A program made the translations under genes and the position numbers. Shown here one piece after another: positions 45,692 through 52,223 of a stretch of DNA of 64,000 bases. The first letter of the stretch is position 1; the number at the start of each line of letters is the position of its first letter. Origin of the DNA: Neorhizobium populisoli (GTDB lineage: Bacteria > Pseudomonadota > Alphaproteobacteria > Rhizobiales > Rhizobiaceae); assembly GCF_019430945.1 (NCBI RefSeq), contig NZ_JAHYCB010000005.1, positions 496,001 through 560,000 on the forward strand. Direction: 5' to 3'. The notes under the pieces were generated by a model, which was not told the DNA's origin, did not search any database, and saw only the letters and a program-made list of their open reading frames with translations.

Positions 45692-46165
45692 TCAGAACGT
45701 CTTGGCAATCGCCTCGAGCTGATCGGCAACGATGCCCCAGCCCGCTTCGAAACCCATTTCCTGATGGGCCTTCATGTCCTCTTCCTTCCAATGCAGCGCG
45801 GTGGCGATGTATTTGGTGCGGCCGTTGCCGAGGTCTTCGAATTCGATGATGCCCGTGAAGAACGGCTTCTCCGCCGGCACCCAGCCAGCCGCCTTGTAGG
45901 CATCGGTAAAGACGATCTTCCGGTTCGGCACGATTTCCAGATAGACGCCATGGTTCGGCATCTTCTCGCCGTTCGGACCTTCCATCAGGATATAACTTTC
46001 GCCGCCCGGGCGCAGGTCGGAGCGCGCCTCGGTCACCGTCCAGGGCTTCGGGCAGAACCATTCCCCGAACCGTTCCGGCGTTGTCCAGGCCTTGAACAGC
46101 TTGTCGGCCGGCGCATCCATCTCCCGAACCAGCTGCAATGCATAAGCGGCGGTATTGGCGGTCAT
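45692..46165 (-). CDS. SRPBCC (AHSA1-like) domain protein
   Basis: The 157-residue helix-grip protein reads LQLVREMDAPADKLFKAWTTPERFGEWFCPKPWTVTEAR, GGESYILMEGPNGEKMPNHGVYLEIVPNRKIVFTDAY and ends with a long helix KAHQEMGFEAGWGIVADQLEAIAKTF. This is a common AHSA1/YndB-type ligand-binding fold. GGGAGA precedes the ATG. Genes of this type often accompany DGPF/ECF42 clusters. This one lies 2.3 kb from that cluster and does not have the shared promoter motif found there. Confidence 0.88.
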   Translation of the reverse strand: MTANTAAYALQLVREMDAPADKLFKAWTTPERFGEWFCPKPWTVTEARSDLRPGGESYILMEGPNGEKMPNHGVYLEIVPNRKIVFTDAYKAAGWVPAEKPFFTGIIEFEDLGNGRTKYIATALHWKEEDMKAHQEMGFEAGWGIVADQLEAIAKTF

Positions 46166-46331
46166 TTTCGTCTCCCTTTGGTTTTGACAAACATCTCACC
46201 CGATGTTGAACCTAGGACGCAAGAGGGAAACCGGAACCGACACGGCGCACGGAATTTTTTCGAAATTCAGTCGAAAATTCTGAAACCGTGGCTGGATACG
46301 TCAGCCTGAGTAAAGCGAACAAGGAGAGCCG

Positions 46332-46799: not shown

Positions 46800-48053
46800 T
46801 CAACCCACCGGCACTCCCACCTCACCCAGCTTATCAATCTGCTGCCGGATATGCGCACATTCCGCGGGCGAATTGGCCAGCGCGATTGCCCGGTCGAACG
46901 CCTCGCGCGCCTCGGCTTTCCGCCCGGACTGCATCAGCAGCCCGCCCTTCACGCCATGGAAATAGAAATAACTCCCGAGCGCATCGGCGAGCGGCACCAG
47001 CATATCCAGCGCTGCGTCCGGCCCGCGCAGTTTTGAGACCGCCACCGCCTTGTTGAGGCTGACGACCGGCGACGGATGTAAACGCTCCAGCAGACTATAG
47101 AGCAGCGTGATTTCCGCCCAATCGGTATCTTCCGGCTTTGCGGCGCGAGCGTGCAAGGCCGAGATCGCCGCCTGCACCTGATAGGAGCCCGGCTTGCGAT
47201 GGCGGATCGCCTTGTCGAGCAACGCCAGAGCCTCATTGATCTGCCGGCGGTCCCAGAGCAAGCGGTTCTGGTCTTCCAGAAGCACGATCTGCCCCTGCCC
47301 GTCGAAGCGCGCATGCGCCCGGGAATGCTGCAACAGCATCAGCGCCAAGAGGCCCATGATCTCCGGTTCGCCTGGAAAAATGCGCAGGAGAAGCCGTGCC
47401 AGCCGGATCGCTTCGTCGCAGAAGGCGGCGCTGTCCTTGTTGGTAATGCCGGCCGAATAACCCTCGTTGAAAACGAGATAGATCATCGACGAGACGATGC
47501 CGAGCCGTTCGGCTCGTTCCTCCGCGCCCGGCGTCTCGAACGGCACCCCGGCTTTGGCGACGCGCGCCTTGGCGCGGGTAATGCGCTGCTCCATGGCGCT
47601 TTCGCCGACCAGAAACGCCCGCGCGATCTGCGGCACTGTCAGCCCGGAAACGATCCTGAGCGCCAGCGCGATCTGCTGGGTGTTCGGCAGGTCCGGATGG
47701 CAGCAGATAAACATCAGCCGCAGGATGTCGTCGCGGTAATTGGAATTGTCGAGCCGGTCGGCGATATCGTCTTCAGCATCGGATAGATCGGAAAAGGCCT
47801 CCTCTTCCGGCAGCGGATCGTTCTTCGAGCGCTTGCGGACCTGGTCGATGCCGCTATTGCGGCCGACGAAGATCAGCCAGGCGGTCGGATCACGCGGCGG
47901 TCCCTTGTCGGGCCAGGTGCGGATCGCCCGCAGGCATGCTTCCTGGAAAGCCTCTTCTGCGATGTCGAGATCGCGGAAGTAACGCAGCAACGCGCCAAGC
48001 GCCTGCGGCCGGGCCGCCGTCAGCGCAAGTTCGATCCAGGCGATATCTGTCAT
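46800..48053 (-). CDS. ECF42-type RNA polymerase sigma factor with C-terminal TPR-like extension
   Basis: The 417-residue protein has sigma region 2 (about 15-80, with RYFRDLDIAEEAFQEACLRAIRTWPDKGPPRDPTAWL), region 4 (about 120-175, with LALRIVSGLTVPQIARAFLVGESAMEQRITRAKARV) and a 240-residue C-terminal extension with tetratricopeptide-like helices and the DUF6596 pattern. There is no anti-sigma gene. This architecture and a coupled DGPF-domain gene (4-bp ATGA overlap) define the ECF42 group, in which the extension takes over regulation. A motif upstream of the operon recurs before the VOC gene and may be its own promoter. Confidence 0.92.
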   Translation of the reverse strand: MTDIAWIELALTAARPQALGALLRYFRDLDIAEEAFQEACLRAIRTWPDKGPPRDPTAWLIFVGRNSGIDQVRKRSKNDPLPEEEAFSDLSDAEDDIADRLDNSNYRDDILRLMFICCHPDLPNTQQIALALRIVSGLTVPQIARAFLVGESAMEQRITRAKARVAKAGVPFETPGAEERAERLGIVSSMIYLVFNEGYSAGITNKDSAAFCDEAIRLARLLLRIFPGEPEIMGLLALMLLQHSRAHARFDGQGQIVLLEDQNRLLWDRRQINEALALLDKAIRHRKPGSYQVQAAISALHARAAKPEDTDWAEITLLYSLLERLHPSPVVSLNKAVAVSKLRGPDAALDMLVPLADALGSYFYFHGVKGGLLMQSGRKAEAREAFDRAIALANSPAECAHIRQQIDKLGEVGVPVG

Positions 48054-48439
48054 GTCTTGCTCTCGCTATTCTTCATGTCACCGGGATGGAAAACGTAGAA
48101 GGGGCGGATTTCATAGGAACTCGAACCGGGATTGACGGCCGAAAGCTCCTTGGAAAAGGTCACGGCCTCGTCCAGCGTGTCGAATTCGGCCGTATAGAAA
48201 CCGAGCAGCACTTCCTTCGTTTCCGCAAACGGCCCGTCGATGACGAGCGCTTCGTCCTTGCCCTTGCGCACGGTAGTGGCCGCCGTCGTCGGCATCAGCC
48301 GCCCGACGGGGCCGAGCTTGCCGGCTTTCGCATAAGGCGCCTGAACCTCGAGCAGCTTCGCCATGACGGCGTCTTCCTCGTCCTTGGACCAGGCGAAGAC
48401 GGTCTCCTCGTGGGCGTAGCAAAGGATGGCATACAGCAT
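48050..48439 (-). CDS. DGPF-domain (YciI-like) protein, partner of the ECF sigma factor
   Basis: The 129-residue protein starts MLYAILCYAHEETVFAWSKDEEDAVM and carries the DGPF motif as IDGPFAETKEVLLGFYTAEFDTLDEAV. It has the ferredoxin-like fold of YCII-related proteins. ATG 48439 has GGGAGAG upstream; the open frame extends far upstream in a shadow frame. It overlaps the sigma gene by 4 bp. In ECF42 systems DGPF genes are usual companions and targets. The operon promoter motif is 24 to 52 bases upstream of its start. Confidence 0.92.
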   Translation of the reverse strand: MLYAILCYAHEETVFAWSKDEEDAVMAKLLEVQAPYAKAGKLGPVGRLMPTTAATTVRKGKDEALVIDGPFAETKEVLLGFYTAEFDTLDEAVTFSKELSAVNPGSSSYEIRPFYVFHPGDMKNSESKT

Positions 48440-48462: not shown

Positions 48463-48491
48463 GACGAAGGAGTAGCCGCTCAGCCGACAGG
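48463..48491 (-). promoter_or_regulatory. Candidate ECF42 promoter of the yciI-sigma operon
   Basis: On the minus strand: CCTGTCGGCT, 9 bases, CTCCTTCGTC. Exactly the same 10+9+10 arrangement, with all 20 specified bases identical, lies at 51719-51747 upstream of the VOC gene. The TGTCGG-like -35 and CGTC-like -10 fit ECF-type promoters. Spacing to the ATG leaves a leader of about 15-20 bases. Confidence 0.8.
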
Positions 48492-48516
48492 TCGCAGCAA
48501 CTTTTTTCGGGATTGC

Positions 48517-49398
48517 TTATCGACGCCCGGAGGGGCTGGTGCCGAAAGTCTCGCGGAAGCGGCGCGAAAAATGCGACCGCGAGGCATAACCGGCGGCTTC
48601 CGCCGCAGCGATGGCCGATGCGCCGGATGCGATGGCGTTCTGCCCGGCTTTCAGCCGCTCGCGGCGGAGCACCGCCCGGAACGATGTCCCCTCGGACGAC
48701 AGCCGCCGTCTCAGAGTCGAAGCCCCGATGCCAAGCTCTGCCGCCACCTCGGCAACGCTCCAGGCCTCCGAGGGCGCCGTAGCGATCAGCCAGGCGATCT
48801 CTTCCGAGAGGCTTTGGCGGAAAAGCGGCCGGGCTTCCGGCAGGGGCCGGAGCAGCGCCAGCACTTCCGTCATCCGTAACCGCTTGATGGTTTCGGAAAC
48901 GGCGCCATCGGCAATCGTCGCAGCCGCATGGCAGAGCGCCTCGACCAGATCCTCTCCGAGCGGCAGGCCGAAACAGCCGGTCGCCCCGCCTTCCAGCCGC
49001 TCGGCGGTCGAGAGCGGTGCAATCCCTTCCGGCAGGCCGGCCACGTCGAGGCGCAGCGCCACGTAATATCCTGTCGCTTCGTCGGGCGCGTTCACCGCAT
49101 CCAGCGCCACCCCCGCAGGCAGCACGAAGACGGATCCCGGCCCGAAGGCCTGCATGCGGTCGCCAAGCCAGACTTCCTTCTGGCCATAGACCACGATGCC
49201 GACCATCGGATGTTCGAGCTCGAGCGCCTTCACCTTCTCCCGATCGAAGCAGCAATAGATGAAGATCTGCTCGGCATATTCGTTCATGCCGGGCTTCAGC
49301 TTGCCGGCCACCATCGGCCGCAGCCGGTCGAGCAGGCGGCGGGAAAGATCGGGAAGGCGTTCTCTGAGGACAAGGTTCATGGGGACACTATAGCGCAT
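48517..49398 (-). CDS. AraC-family transcriptional regulator
   Basis: The 293-residue protein has a cupin-like N-terminal domain (about 40-150, with EHPMVGIVVYGQKEVWLGDRMQAFGPGSVFVLPAG) and a C-terminal AraC helix-turn-helix pair (about 195-290, with SVAEVAAELGIGASTLRRRLSSEGTSFRAVLR and AAGYASRSHFSRRFRETFGTSP). It lies upstream of the yciI-sigma operon on the same strand, but 77 bp separate them and the operon has its own promoter motif. It is divergent from the MBL gene. The start lacks a clear ribosome binding site. Confidence 0.88.
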   Translation of the reverse strand: MRYSVPMNLVLRERLPDLSRRLLDRLRPMVAGKLKPGMNEYAEQIFIYCCFDREKVKALELEHPMVGIVVYGQKEVWLGDRMQAFGPGSVFVLPAGVALDAVNAPDEATGYYVALRLDVAGLPEGIAPLSTAERLEGGATGCFGLPLGEDLVEALCHAAATIADGAVSETIKRLRMTEVLALLRPLPEARPLFRQSLSEEIAWLIATAPSEAWSVAEVAAELGIGASTLRRRLSSEGTSFRAVLRRERLKAGQNAIASGASAIAAAEAAGYASRSHFSRRFRETFGTSPSGRR

Positions 49399-49515
49399 GA
49401 TGATGAGCGAAAAATATCCCCGCTGAGCGTTTCGGGCTCAAGTCGGCAGAAATCCGGCACGGAGAGGCATATGATACAGGGCAGAAAGCGACGGCTTCAA
49501 CAAAGGACCCCTTCC

Positions 49516-50355
49516 ATGAAGACTTTCGCTTCGCTCATCACCACCGCCGCGGCATTGCTGGCACTCTCCGCTCCTGCCAAGGCGGCTCCAGATCTCGAAC
49601 TCTGGCGGCTCGATTGCGGCACCGTGCAGGTCAAGGACATGTCGATCTTCTCCGACACCTTCGCCTATGCCGGTGAGCACGGCACGCTCACCGACAGCTG
49701 CTACGTCATCCGTCACGACAGCGATTACCTGCTGTGGGATACCGGCCTGCCGGCCGCCCTCGTCGGCCAGAAACCCGACCTCAGCCAACCGCTCGCCGTG
49801 GCGCTGGACGCCGACATCCCGAGCCAGCTTGCCAAGATCGGCATCAAGCCGGAGCAGATTGCCACGATCGGCATCAGCCACAACCATTTCGACCATCTGG
49901 GCCAGGCCGCGACCTTCCCGAGAGCAAAGCTGATGATCGGTGCCGCCGACTGGGAGACGTTCAAGAAGAAGCCGCTGCCCTTCGGCGTCGATGCGACGCT
50001 CGTCAAGCACTGGCTGGACGGCAAGGGCAAGGTCGATCCCGTTTCCGGCGACCGGGACGTCTTCGGCGACGGTTCCGTCATGATGCTCGCCATGCCGGGT
50101 CACACGGAAGGCGAGACGGCCCTCCTCGTCAAGCTGCTGCAGAAAGGCCCGATCCTGCTCTCCGGTGACGTCGTGCATTTCGAAAAGCAGATCGACAATC
50201 GCGGTGTGCCCGGCTTCAACGCCGACCGCGCCGAAACGCTTGCCTCGATGGAACGCCTGACAAAGATCGCCGACGGCCTGAAAGCGACGCTGGTCATCCA
50301 GCACGACCCGAGCCACGTTTCTCGCCTGCCGGCATTTCCGGCCAGCGCGAAGTAG
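49516..50355 (+). CDS. Secreted MBL-fold hydrolase, AHL-lactonase-like
   Basis: The 279-residue precursor has a signal peptide (about 1-24, ending AKA). A metallo-beta-lactamase fold follows, with the zinc motif SHNHFDHLG, the second-ligand regions GHTEGE and LSGDVVHFEKQ, and the final His in VIQHDPSHV. Pattern and length resemble the N-acyl-homoserine-lactone lactonase family, with export to the periplasm. Actual quorum quenching is inference; a general lactonase is equally possible. AAGGA lies 8 bp before the ATG. A long frame continuing upstream from 48928 is a shadow of the AraC gene. Confidence 0.82.
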   Translation: MKTFASLITTAAALLALSAPAKAAPDLELWRLDCGTVQVKDMSIFSDTFAYAGEHGTLTDSCYVIRHDSDYLLWDTGLPAALVGQKPDLSQPLAVALDADIPSQLAKIGIKPEQIATIGISHNHFDHLGQAATFPRAKLMIGAADWETFKKKPLPFGVDATLVKHWLDGKGKVDPVSGDRDVFGDGSVMMLAMPGHTEGETALLVKLLQKGPILLSGDVVHFEKQIDNRGVPGFNADRAETLASMERLTKIADGLKATLVIQHDPSHVSRLPAFPASAK

Positions 50356-50394
50356 GCGATAGCGCGCGGTCTGAAACACAGCGTCCATGAAACG

Positions 50395-50472
50395 CCACTG
50401 GCGCATCTCGCGCCGGTGGATATATTCCGCGGGAAGCCGTCCCACTGGCTCACTCCCGCACCCGAGGAATAT
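50395..50472 (+). promoter_or_regulatory. Structured leader of the GST gene, ribosome binding site in a hairpin
   Basis: Hairpin 1: CCACTGGCGC / GCGCCGGTGG (50395-50419, one G-T pair). Hairpin 2: ATATTCC-GCGGGA at 50422-50434 pairs with TCCCGC (50454-50459) and GGAATAT (50466-50472), with AGCC/GGCT inside. The GAGGAA ribosome binding site (50464-50469) is partly inside hairpin 2. Hairpin 1 may instead end the MBL transcript. Confidence 0.45.
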
Positions 50473-50476
50473 CCGC

Positions 50477-51184
50477 ATGGCCGACCTTTCCGCCTTCCCC
50501 ATCACCTCCAAATGGCCCGCCAAGGACCCGAGCGTACTGCAGCTTTATTCGACGCCGACGCCGAACGGCGTGAAAGTTTCGATCATGCTGGAGGAGATCG
50601 GCCTGCCCTACGAGCCGCACTTCATCAATATCGGCGAGAACGAAACCTGGGGGCCGGAATATCTGGCGCTGAACCCGAACGGCAAGATTCCGGCGATCAT
50701 CGATCCGAATGGCCCGGACGGTAAGCCGCTCGGCCTGTTCGAGTCGGGCGCCATCCTGATCTACCTCGCCGAAAAGACCGGCAAGCTGCTGCCTTCGGAT
50801 GCCGCCAAGCGCTACGAGACGATCCAGTGGGTCTTCTTCCAGATGGCGGGTCTCGGCCCGATGTTCGGCCAGCTCGGTTTCTTCCACAAGTTCGCCGGCA
50901 AGGATATCGAGGACAAGCGTCCGCGTGACCGTTACGCCAAGGAATCCCATCGCATCATCCGCGTGCTTGAAACCCGGCTTGAAGGCCGCGACTGGATCAT
51001 GGGCGACGATTATACGATCGCCGACATTTCCATGCTCGGCTGGGTGCGCAACCTTGTCGGCTTCTACGGCGCCGGTGAATTCGTCGAATACGACCAGCTG
51101 AAGAACGTGCCGTTATGGCTGGAACGCGGCCTCGCCCGCCCGGCCGTTGCCCGCGGCCTGGACATCCCCAAACGTCCGGCCTGA
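50477..51184 (+). CDS. Glutathione S-transferase, Nu-class (YfcG/YghU-like)
   Basis: The 235-residue protein has a thioredoxin-like N-terminal domain (LQLYSTPTPNGVKVSIMLEEIGLPYE, NPNGKIPAIIDPNGPDGKPLGLFESGAILIYLAEKTG) and a helical C-terminal domain (MGDDYTIADISMLGWVRNL). The T-P-N-G motif in place of a catalytic Ser/Cys is typical of the YfcG/YghU group, which has disulfide-bond reductase activity with glutathione. ATG 50477 follows a GAGGAA box; the open frame begins 90 bases earlier. The leader is strongly structured. Confidence 0.92.
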   Translation: MADLSAFPITSKWPAKDPSVLQLYSTPTPNGVKVSIMLEEIGLPYEPHFINIGENETWGPEYLALNPNGKIPAIIDPNGPDGKPLGLFESGAILIYLAEKTGKLLPSDAAKRYETIQWVFFQMAGLGPMFGQLGFFHKFAGKDIEDKRPRDRYAKESHRIIRVLETRLEGRDWIMGDDYTIADISMLGWVRNLVGFYGAGEFVEYDQLKNVPLWLERGLARPAVARGLDIPKRPA

Positions 51185-51205
51185 AACTCTAAAAACGCCT
51201 GACAA

Positions 51206-51234
51206 TATCACGGCGTCACGCTATCTCCTTGTGC
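51206..51234 (+). promoter_or_regulatory. Degenerate ECF42-type promoter candidate before the GFA gene
   Basis: At the same 10+9+10 spacing as the two perfect motifs, TATCACGGCG and CTCCTTGTGC match 12 of 20 specified bases (5/10 at -35 including the CGGC core, 7/10 at -10). Plausible only because it lies in the same gene cluster. Confidence 0.35.
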
Positions 51235-51250
51235 GTCACAAGGAGATAGC
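51220..51250 (+). promoter_or_regulatory. Perfect 14-bp palindrome covering the GFA ribosome binding site
   Basis: GCTATCTCCTTGTG, loop CGT, CACAAGGAGATAGC. The right arm contains the AAGGAG ribosome binding site and ends one base before the ATG. In a read-through mRNA the site would be fully sequestered. It could also be a DNA operator. Confidence 0.7.
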
Positions 51251-51251
51251 C

Positions 51252-51704
51252 ATGCCGAAACCTTCCCTCCCGCTCGAAGGAACCTGCCGTTGCGGTCAGG
51301 TTCGCCTGAAGATCAGCGCCCAGCCGCTTTTCACCGCCGCCTGCCATTGCCGCGGCTGTCAGAAGATGAGCGGCAGCGCCTTTTCCTGCACGGCTGCCGT
51401 CCCGGCCGCCGGTTTCGAGGTTATCCAGGGTGAACCGGTGATCGGTGGCGTGCACGGTGCCGAAATCCAGCACTACCATTGCCCGAATTGCAAAAGCTGG
51501 ATGTTCACGCGGCCGGTCGGTATGGATTTCGTCAATGTGCGCCCGACCATGCTCGAAGACTATTCCTGGTTCGCCCCGTTCGTCGAAACCTACACGTCCA
51601 CTAAATTTCCCTGGGCCGAAACGGGTGCCGCTCACAGCTTCCCGGAATTTCCGCCGATGGAGAGTTTCGGACCGCTGCTGCAGGAATTTGCCGAGCGCGG
51701 CTGA
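51252..51704 (+). CDS. GFA-family zinc protein
   Basis: The 150-residue protein has the GFA/CENP-V zinc pattern: EGTCRCGQVRLKI (about 9-21), AACHCRGCQKMSGSAF (about 30-45) and YHCPNCKSWMFTRP (about 75-88). A C-terminal extension with FAPFVETYTSTKFPWAETGAAHSFPEFP distinguishes it from the other GFA protein in this window (24721). AAGGAG lies 6 bp before the ATG, inside a 14-bp palindrome. It lies between the GST and VOC genes, in the cluster with the ECF42-type motifs. Confidence 0.87.
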   Translation: MPKPSLPLEGTCRCGQVRLKISAQPLFTAACHCRGCQKMSGSAFSCTAAVPAAGFEVIQGEPVIGGVHGAEIQHYHCPNCKSWMFTRPVGMDFVNVRPTMLEDYSWFAPFVETYTSTKFPWAETGAAHSFPEFPPMESFGPLLQEFAERG

Positions 51705-51718
51705 TTTTTTAGATAACG

Positions 51719-51747
51719 CCTGTCGGCTCCGCCAGTTCTCCTTCGTC
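51719..51747 (+). promoter_or_regulatory. Candidate ECF42 promoter of the VOC gene
   Basis: CCTGTCGGCT, 9 bases, CTCCTTCGTC, identical at all 20 specified bases and in spacing to the motif before the yciI-sigma operon (48463-48491, minus strand). The -10 part ends 47 bases before the VOC ATG. The leader downstream contains a small stem CGGTTC/GAACCG. Confidence 0.8.
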
Positions 51748-51794
51748 CTCGGTTCGGCTCCAACGGAACCGACAACCACGAAGGAGGAATTTTC

Positions 51795-52223
51795 ATGGAT
51801 ACGACTGCTCAGGCGAGCGAAACCAAGGCACCGTCCCCGGTTCTCGGCGGGATCGTGCCATACCTGCAGGTCGATGGCGCGATAAAGGCTGCCGAACTCT
51901 ACCAGAAGGCCCTAGGCGCCAGCCTGGAAGACTTTCACCCCGTCGATGAAAAGGGGCGCACGATGCATGTGCACCTCTACATCAACGGCGGCTCGGTCAT
52001 GCTGAACGATCCCTATCCGGATTATGGTCACCCTTACGAGGCGCCGGCCGGTTTCACCGTGCTTCTGCCGGTAGTCGATATCGACATGTGGTGGAAACGC
52101 GCCATCAATGCCGGCATGACCGTGGTCATGGATCTGCAGGTGATGTTCTGGGGCGACCGTTATGGCCAGCTGCGCGATCCGTTCGGGGTCATGTGGTCGA
52201 TGAACGAGCCGGTAAAAAGCTAA
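51795..52223 (+). CDS. VOC-superfamily (glyoxalase/PhnB-like) protein
   Basis: The 142-residue protein has paired beta-alpha-beta-beta-beta modules of the vicinal-oxygen-chelate fold: IVPYLQVDGAIKAAELYQKALGASLEDFHPVDEKGRTMHVHLYINGGSVMLNDPYPDYG and FTVLLPVVDIDMWWKRAINAGMTVVMDLQVMFWGDRYGQLRDPFGVMWSM. PhnB-like members are not true glyoxalases and their substrate is unknown. GAAGGAGG precedes the ATG. The upstream promoter motif is the same as that of the ECF sigma operon, so it is probably in that regulon. Confidence 0.92.
   Translation: MDTTAQASETKAPSPVLGGIVPYLQVDGAIKAAELYQKALGASLEDFHPVDEKGRTMHVHLYINGGSVMLNDPYPDYGHPYEAPAGFTVLLPVVDIDMWWKRAINAGMTVVMDLQVMFWGDRYGQLRDPFGVMWSMNEPVKS

Follow-up and report, generated by a model that had tools for sequence, protein, structure and literature searches.

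A TGTCGG-N17-CGTC promoter motif probably recognised by an ECF42-type sigma factor in Neorhizobium populisoli and its relatives

In a 64,000-nucleotide stretch of the genome of Neorhizobium populisoli (contig NZ_JAHYCB010000005.1, positions 496,001 to 560,000; hereafter the window), a bipartite promoter-like motif stands before an operon of yciI and a sigma factor gene, before a VOC gene and before an AHSA1 gene. With a probability of about 0.9, the extracytoplasmic function (ECF) sigma factor of ECF42 type encoded at 46800–48053 recognises this motif as its promoter. The sites, their fixed spacing, their conservation before orthologous genes and their co-occurrence with the sigma factor were computed here, whereas binding and activation by the sigma factor at these sites are inferred by analogy with RpoE10 of Sinorhizobium meliloti. 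The features concerned are as follows.

46800–48053, minus strand: ECF42-type sigma factor gene (417 amino acids; Sigma70_r2, Sigma70_r4_2, DUF6596 and TPR)
48050–48439, minus strand: yciI (YCII/DGPF type), with a 4-base overlap with the sigma gene start
48463–48491, minus strand: promoter-like site before yciI-sigma, with TGTCGG at 48484–48489, CGTC at 48463–48466 and a TA step at spacer positions 10–11
51719–51752, plus strand: promoter-like site before VOC, with TGTCGG at 51721–51726, CGTC at 51744–51747 and the discriminator CTCGG at 51748–51752
51795–52223, plus strand: VOC gene (Glyoxalase, PF00903), starting 47 bases after CGTC
46211–46242, minus strand: third site, before AHSA1, with TGTCGG at 46237–46242, CGTC at 46216–46219 and the discriminator CTAGG at 46211–46215
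45692–46165, minus strand: AHSA1 gene (SRPBCC type), starting 50 bases after CGTC

An earlier note on this DNA had described two identical copies of a 20-base motif with different spacers, had held them to be far beyond chance and had proposed a scan of the whole genome. The copies are as described: CCTGTCGGCT-N9-CTCCTTCGTC is found at 48463–48491 (minus strand) and at 51719–51747 (plus strand) with 0 mismatches over all 20 bases, while the 9-base spacers (GAGCGGCTA and CCGCCAGTT) differ and the flanks are also unlike. By chance 0.01 matches are expected in the window, two copies were reached in 0 of 100 shuffles and a window scan allowing up to three mismatches returned no match besides the two exact copies. 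In the 6.84-Mb genome the exact motif is confined to these two copies. Five matches with 3 mismatches come next, and scanning with the reversed pattern as a control gave 2 matches at up to 3 mismatches. The identity of the 20 bases is thus real; as a functional unit they were overstated, since the promoter classes of the orthologues share only TGTCGG-N17-CGTC. The earlier list of sites was likewise correct for the two copies and incomplete beyond them: it overlooked six distant extended sites, described below, and the AHSA1 site (46216–46242), which the 20-base form missed because the outer bases differ there.

The core is conserved at a fixed spacing before orthologous genes. For this comparison 80 loci around orthologues of the sigma factor (69–89% identity; the best 80 of 438 confirmed places, 1.33 Mb) were examined, taking the best match per locus and requiring at least 200 bases of upstream sequence. 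TGTCGG-N17-CGTC occurs 153 times in these loci, compared with 21, 11, 11 and 19 occurrences at spacings of N15, N16, N18 and N19, respectively, and 5 for the reversed pattern. Before yciI the core is exact in 74 of 80 loci, with five further loci at one mismatch and one at two (79/80 at no more than one mismatch); before AHSA1 it is exact in 51 of 58 and has one mismatch in six (57/58), and before VOC it is exact in 20 of 21. The motif is therefore kept, in its core form, upstream of orthologous ECF42 operons and of VOC, which is the comparison that the earlier note had suggested. At the same threshold the core precedes DUF1905 in 1 of 13 cases and was not found before GST (0/30), AraC (0/10) or the metallo-beta-lactamase-fold gene (0/10), nor directly before the start of the sigma gene (0/80). 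Control spacings of 15 or 19 bases gave 1/80 for yciI, 0/21 for VOC, 2/58 for AHSA1 and 7/80 for the sigma gene. When 40 further loci and the window were added, the site was present before yciI in 119 of 121 loci, the exceptions being L047 (2 mismatches) and L224 (4 mismatches); the 119 leaders comprise 111 distinct sequences, some genomes being duplicated. What all promoter classes share is TGTCGG-N17-CGTC.

Many target promoters carry a longer form, CGTCCTNGG. In the genome of N. populisoli the bare core gave 30 matches and its reversed control 15, whereas the exact extended form gave 8 matches and its control 0 (19 and 2, respectively, with one mismatch allowed). A gene starts 32–76 bases after CGTC at all eight extended sites; the genes are DoxX, Glyoxalase, DoxX_2, DUF1428, AHSA1 (window), VOC (window), 3-dmu-9_3-mt (VOC-like) and a second Glyoxalase. 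The genome contains 35 PF00903 matches, and at least three among eight targets would arise by chance with p of about 8e-6, a gene total of 6500 being assumed. The downstream frames were viewed for 16 of the 30 bare-core sites, and seven core sites without the full extension, which precede GST, 3-dmu, SnoaL_3, Glyoxalase, AraC, MarR and MFS genes, are weaker candidates for the regulon. Among the orthologous promoters, CT directly follows CGTC in 53 of 57 AHSA1, 20 of 20 VOC and 7 of 79 yciI promoters, and the full CTNGG is present in 24/57, 12/20 and 2/79, respectively; CTNGG is thus common among target promoters but not universal. As a separate observation, a near-extended site, CGTCCTATG, lies at G000:C23:74506-74537 (L100, L131), in a gap where long frames are absent. 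An AraC-family gene follows 37 bases further on, so that the site is a possible link from the sigma factor to a second regulator.

The extended site also follows the sigma factor from genome to genome. The order was represented by 297 genomes, in which the sigma factor was searched at E ≤ 1e-60 and extended sites were counted, with 4 control matches in all. The site was found in 58 of 66 genomes with a close orthologue, defined as at least 56% identity (185 sites), in 5 of 53 with only a distant relative (5 sites) and in 5 of 178 with no sigma match (5 sites). The corresponding figures for 199 genomes of the family, of which 8 are in common with the order set (10 control matches), were 62/70 (163 sites), 2/34 (3 sites) and 4/95 (4 sites), so that the contrast is clear inside one family. 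Fisher tests gave 4e-41 for the order and 3e-31 for the family, values that should not be read literally, as the genomes are related.

In the sigma factor, both Sigma70_r2 (residues 15–77) and Sigma70_r4_2 (114–164) exceed the Pfam cut-off, and the approximately 250 residues C-terminal to sigma4 contain DUF6596 (183–282) and TPR matches between 336 and 398, of which TPR_14 is over its cut-off and TPR_2 and TPR_16 are under theirs. A YciI relative is present in all 80 orthologue loci, and a profile scan of the nine proteins neighbouring the sigma factor returned no match to an anti-sigma family. The ECF42 features that had been claimed for this locus, namely a DGPF partner, a TPR-like extension and no anti-sigma, were thus borne out by domain scans of the sigma factor and these nine neighbours; the ECF42 traits found comprise sigma2 and sigma4, the TPR extension, the adjacent YCII gene, no neighbouring anti-sigma and a TGTCG/CGTC-type promoter. 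In NCBIfam, a library without the published ECF-group models, only the general sigma70-ECF model scored above cut-off. Besides one full-length match to the sigma factor, the genome contains a single partial match, which is weak (28% identity); the best named relatives, at 86–89% identity, are from Rhizobium terrae and Neorhizobium.

The closest documented parallel, in the accessible portions of the published account, is RpoE10 of S. meliloti (PMC6180224), an ECF42 sigma with a TPR extension and an adjacent YCII gene. Its mapped SMc01149 promoter is printed in Table 1 as CCTGTCGGCA-GGCGGCATC-CTCCTTCGTC-CTTGG, and transcription begins on the ninth base downstream of CGTC. This promoter agrees with the motif in 19 of 20 bases, keeps the spacing and shows the CTNGG form, whereas the SMb20475 promoter has the core and lacks CTNGG. 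RpoE10 raises SMc01149, SMc01148, SMb20475 and SMb20474; its targets include glyoxalase-like genes and one predicted hydrophobic-ligand binder, and six genes rose in S. meliloti, compared with the eight extended sites predicted here (PMC6180224). The motif, its sigma factor and part of the target set were therefore already documented in a relative, and the core finding of this study repeats the RpoE10 result. Together with conservation and co-occurrence, these data uphold the proposal that a promoter of ECF42 type, linked to the local sigma factor, is present here and that VOC belongs to the regulon. At the protein level, to which this comparison is limited, the ECF42 sigma of Streptomyces venezuelae and ECF-10 of Pseudomonas putida are also similar, with a TPR C-terminal extension of about 200 residues and a YCII-type neighbour, and no anti-sigma is described for them in the available part of the source (PMC8999054). 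In the same part, the TPR extension is described as essential for activity and the YCII protein is suggested to share in regulation (PMC8999054). To the S. meliloti results this study adds the site before AHSA1, the dispersed target set of the present genome and the discriminator preference, as well as the link between sigma and site over several hundred genomes and the TA mark on the sigma factor's own promoter. A literature search through titles and abstract openings, with subscription papers mostly outside its reach, returned no description of a dispersed ECF42 regulon in Rhizobiaceae.

In the mechanism that we propose, TGTCGG would act as the −35 element and CGTC as the −10 element, separated by a 17-base spacer, with CTNGG added as a discriminator at many targets, and RNA polymerase carrying this sigma factor would start approximately nine bases after CGTC. 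A signal, perhaps conveyed by YciI, may change the sigma factor through its TPR extension, which is the less certain step, and the holoenzyme would then open the VOC, AHSA1 and distant promoters. A dispersed set of small enzymes would thereby be switched on from at least eight transcription units in this genome: VOC and AHSA1 close to the sigma operon and, elsewhere, two Glyoxalase units, one 3-dmu-9_3-mt, two of DoxX type and one DUF1428. Their products, mostly small glyoxalase, SRPBCC and DoxX-type proteins, may handle reactive or hydrophobic compounds. Within this mechanism, only the link between the sigma factor and the promoter is well supported. Sigma factors of the ECF42 group are widespread and have no known anti-sigma, and their signal and regulon are poorly known in the literature as far as it was accessible; a dispersed regulon predictable from sequence supplies named targets, and the contrast between target and own promoters makes autoregulation directly testable.

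The other genes around the sigma operon are AraC, metallo-beta-lactamase-fold, GST, GFA, VOC, AHSA1 and DUF1905 genes, and two of these are needed below.

48517–49398: AraC-type regulator gene, adjoining yciI and ending 25 bases upstream of that gene's promoter-like site
51252–51704, plus strand: GFA gene

Several points weigh against recognition of the motif by this sigma factor. With 30 bare-core matches against 15 for the control, about half of the bare-core matches may be due to chance; the longer form was chosen after the core flanks of this same genome had been viewed, and the 56% cut for a close orthologue was set after viewing the list. The exact extended site is absent from 8/66 and 8/70 genomes with a close sigma, and the relatedness of the genomes means that the counts are not independent. 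In S. meliloti, moreover, the motif before the YCII gene SMc01151, which has the exact core, overlaps the mapped start, and in the available data SMc01151 was not raised by overexpression of RpoE10 (PMC6180224). Another ECF sigma of the genome, for example one of ECF41 type, could instead read the sites. The genome has 20 Sigma70_r2 matches, and the ECF41 promoter of S. meliloti RpoE9, TGTCAC-N17-CGTC as counted, shares the TGTC…CGTC form, the 17-base spacing and the −10 element. However, its −35 element ends in AC and not GG, the extension of the ECF41 sigma is SnoaL-like and not TPR, and there is one target operon (PMC6180224, PMC9023288). Relaxing the −35 to TGTCNN returned the same eight extended sites here, all with GG (control 0), the sites track the close ECF42 orthologue across genomes, and the motif precedes the sigma operon itself, which together make this alternative improbable. 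Even less probable is an operator of the adjoining AraC-type regulator, a reading suggested by the 25-base proximity of its gene end to the yciI site: an AraC relative with enough upstream sequence is present in 10 of 80 loci, yet the yciI site is present in 79 of 80, the AraC genes themselves are without the site (0/10), and the bipartite spacing and position suit an ECF promoter. Twenty identical bases might also indicate that the copies are part of a dispersed repeat, or stem from a recent duplication, and play no regulatory role, but this is scarcely credible given unrelated spacers and flanks, only two exact copies in the genome and orthologues that retain only the promoter core at a fixed spacing.

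The fourth alternative concerns one promoter. The targets would be ECF42 promoters, as proposed here, but the yciI site would be unproductive as a self-promoter and a second, TA-marked start embedded in the motif would drive the operon. TA occupies spacer positions 10–11 in 54 of 72 yciI representatives and in 1 of 123 target representatives (representatives of 85% clusters; the trans sites among the targets were preselected for CGTCCTNGG, and 15 loci with a nearby YciI-like gene were removed from them). An embedded start would fit both the start overlap and the non-response of SMc01151, a suggestion drawn from one species; in its printed promoter TA lies two bases further upstream than in the yciI promoters here, as counted from PMC6180224. 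Against this alternative, the start-site evidence comes from that species alone, no convincing sigma-70 −35 element was found at a normal distance from the TA step, and the core is more conserved before yciI than elsewhere, which argues for use of the yciI site by the sigma factor. We regard an unproductive yciI site as possible but the less likely outcome, and slightly favour the view that the yciI copy makes the yciI-sigma operon self-regulating. More speculatively, close ECF42 orthologues in the order may run a dispersed VOC, SRPBCC, DoxX, RibD_C and DUF899 regulon through two promoter classes, in which targets tend to continue as CGTCCTNGG and the own promoter carries the TA step as the mark of an embedded, sigma-independent start, so that binding at the own operon would not be simple self-amplification.

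Further differences between the yciI promoters and the others were recorded. The TA step is present in 35 of 37 yciI promoters from named Rhizobiaceae or the same family, in 10 of 10 from records labelled 'Rhizobiales bacterium' and in 16 of 32 from other families and unplaced metagenome records. CTCCTT, with at most one mismatch, is found in 50/79 yciI, 4/20 VOC and 1/57 AHSA1 promoters. Upstream of the yciI core, mainly in Rhizobiaceae loci, a common TTTTTTG-TGCG block is found, whereas in the promoters of AHSA1 and VOC an A/T-rich tract takes this place. The idea that a standard sigma-70 promoter spans the yciI motif was considered and not accepted, because the distance from the TTG-like block to the TA step is about 20 bases. 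Pairing of the yciI spacer ACTCCTTC with the ribosome site GAAGGAG was also considered and rejected as too weak and not specific: relative to shuffled spacers the duplex energy had a mean z of −1.0 for yciI (109 distinct leaders, 21% with p ≤ 0.05), −0.42 for AHSA1 (58) and −0.84 for VOC (19). Six leaders (L041, L043, L066, L068, L214 and L215) showed strong spacer pairing, equalled in 0 of 300 shuffles. In the yciI leaders of L213–L215 and L219, which belong to the same family, GGTCCT within the spacer forms, with AGGACC or GGGACC at the ribosome site, an inverted repeat unlike the ACTCC/GGAGT repeat of Rhizobium leaders, single lineages being striking in this respect.

The GFA gene, which the earlier note had offered as a possible member on the basis of a degenerate site at 51206–51234, is not supported as a member of the regulon: no TGTCGG stands there at the motif spacing, and the core was found with fewer than three mismatches upstream of 0 of 26 GFA orthologues, so that membership of this gene was rejected. 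Directly before GFA, a perfect 14-bp inverted repeat, GCTATCTCCTTGTG-CGT-CACAAGGAGATAGC (51220–51250, plus strand), buries the ribosome-binding site, and a similar hairpin is present in 10 of the 26 orthologue leaders. In the window and nine of those ten leaders, a set selected for having the hairpin, pairing holds in 88.6% of cells compared with 42–52% when slid, and a covariation score of 0.205 was equalled by 2 of 500 shuffles. The pattern CTATCTCC-N4-22-GGAGATAG occurs in the genome only at the GFA leader, and Rfam returned no match at E ≤ 1. The hairpin may serve as a switch of translation, or it may act as an operator.

The target families in relatives were surveyed with 78 extended sites, comprising 8 from this genome, 30 from loci returned by the order search and 40 from six genomes of the family, one of which (G229) contributed 5 of its 8 extended sites. 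A downstream frame was obtained for 76 of the 78 (none at L139 and L203), and 75 were scanned, L195 being dropped as it ran off its locus. Among the matches listed, which cover 25 of 33 families and in which one protein may score in several families, the counts were Glyoxalase 12, AHSA1 11, RibD_C 8, YCII 7, Glyoxalase_6 7, 3-dmu 6, DUF899 5, DoxX 5, DoxX_2 3, GST_N 2, DUF1428 1 and SnoaL_3 1; the frames at L141, L168, L181 and L197, among others, were probably wrongly chosen. One GFA-family gene lies behind an extended site in another genome (L194). DUF899 (5/75) and RibD_C (8/75) recur behind the extended sites of relatives (L185, L191, L196 and others) and at 0 of 8 sites in this genome. 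At L184, L188 and L205 the extended sites precede a conserved 60-residue protein that starts with MSVLSSIGR and has no Pfam match.

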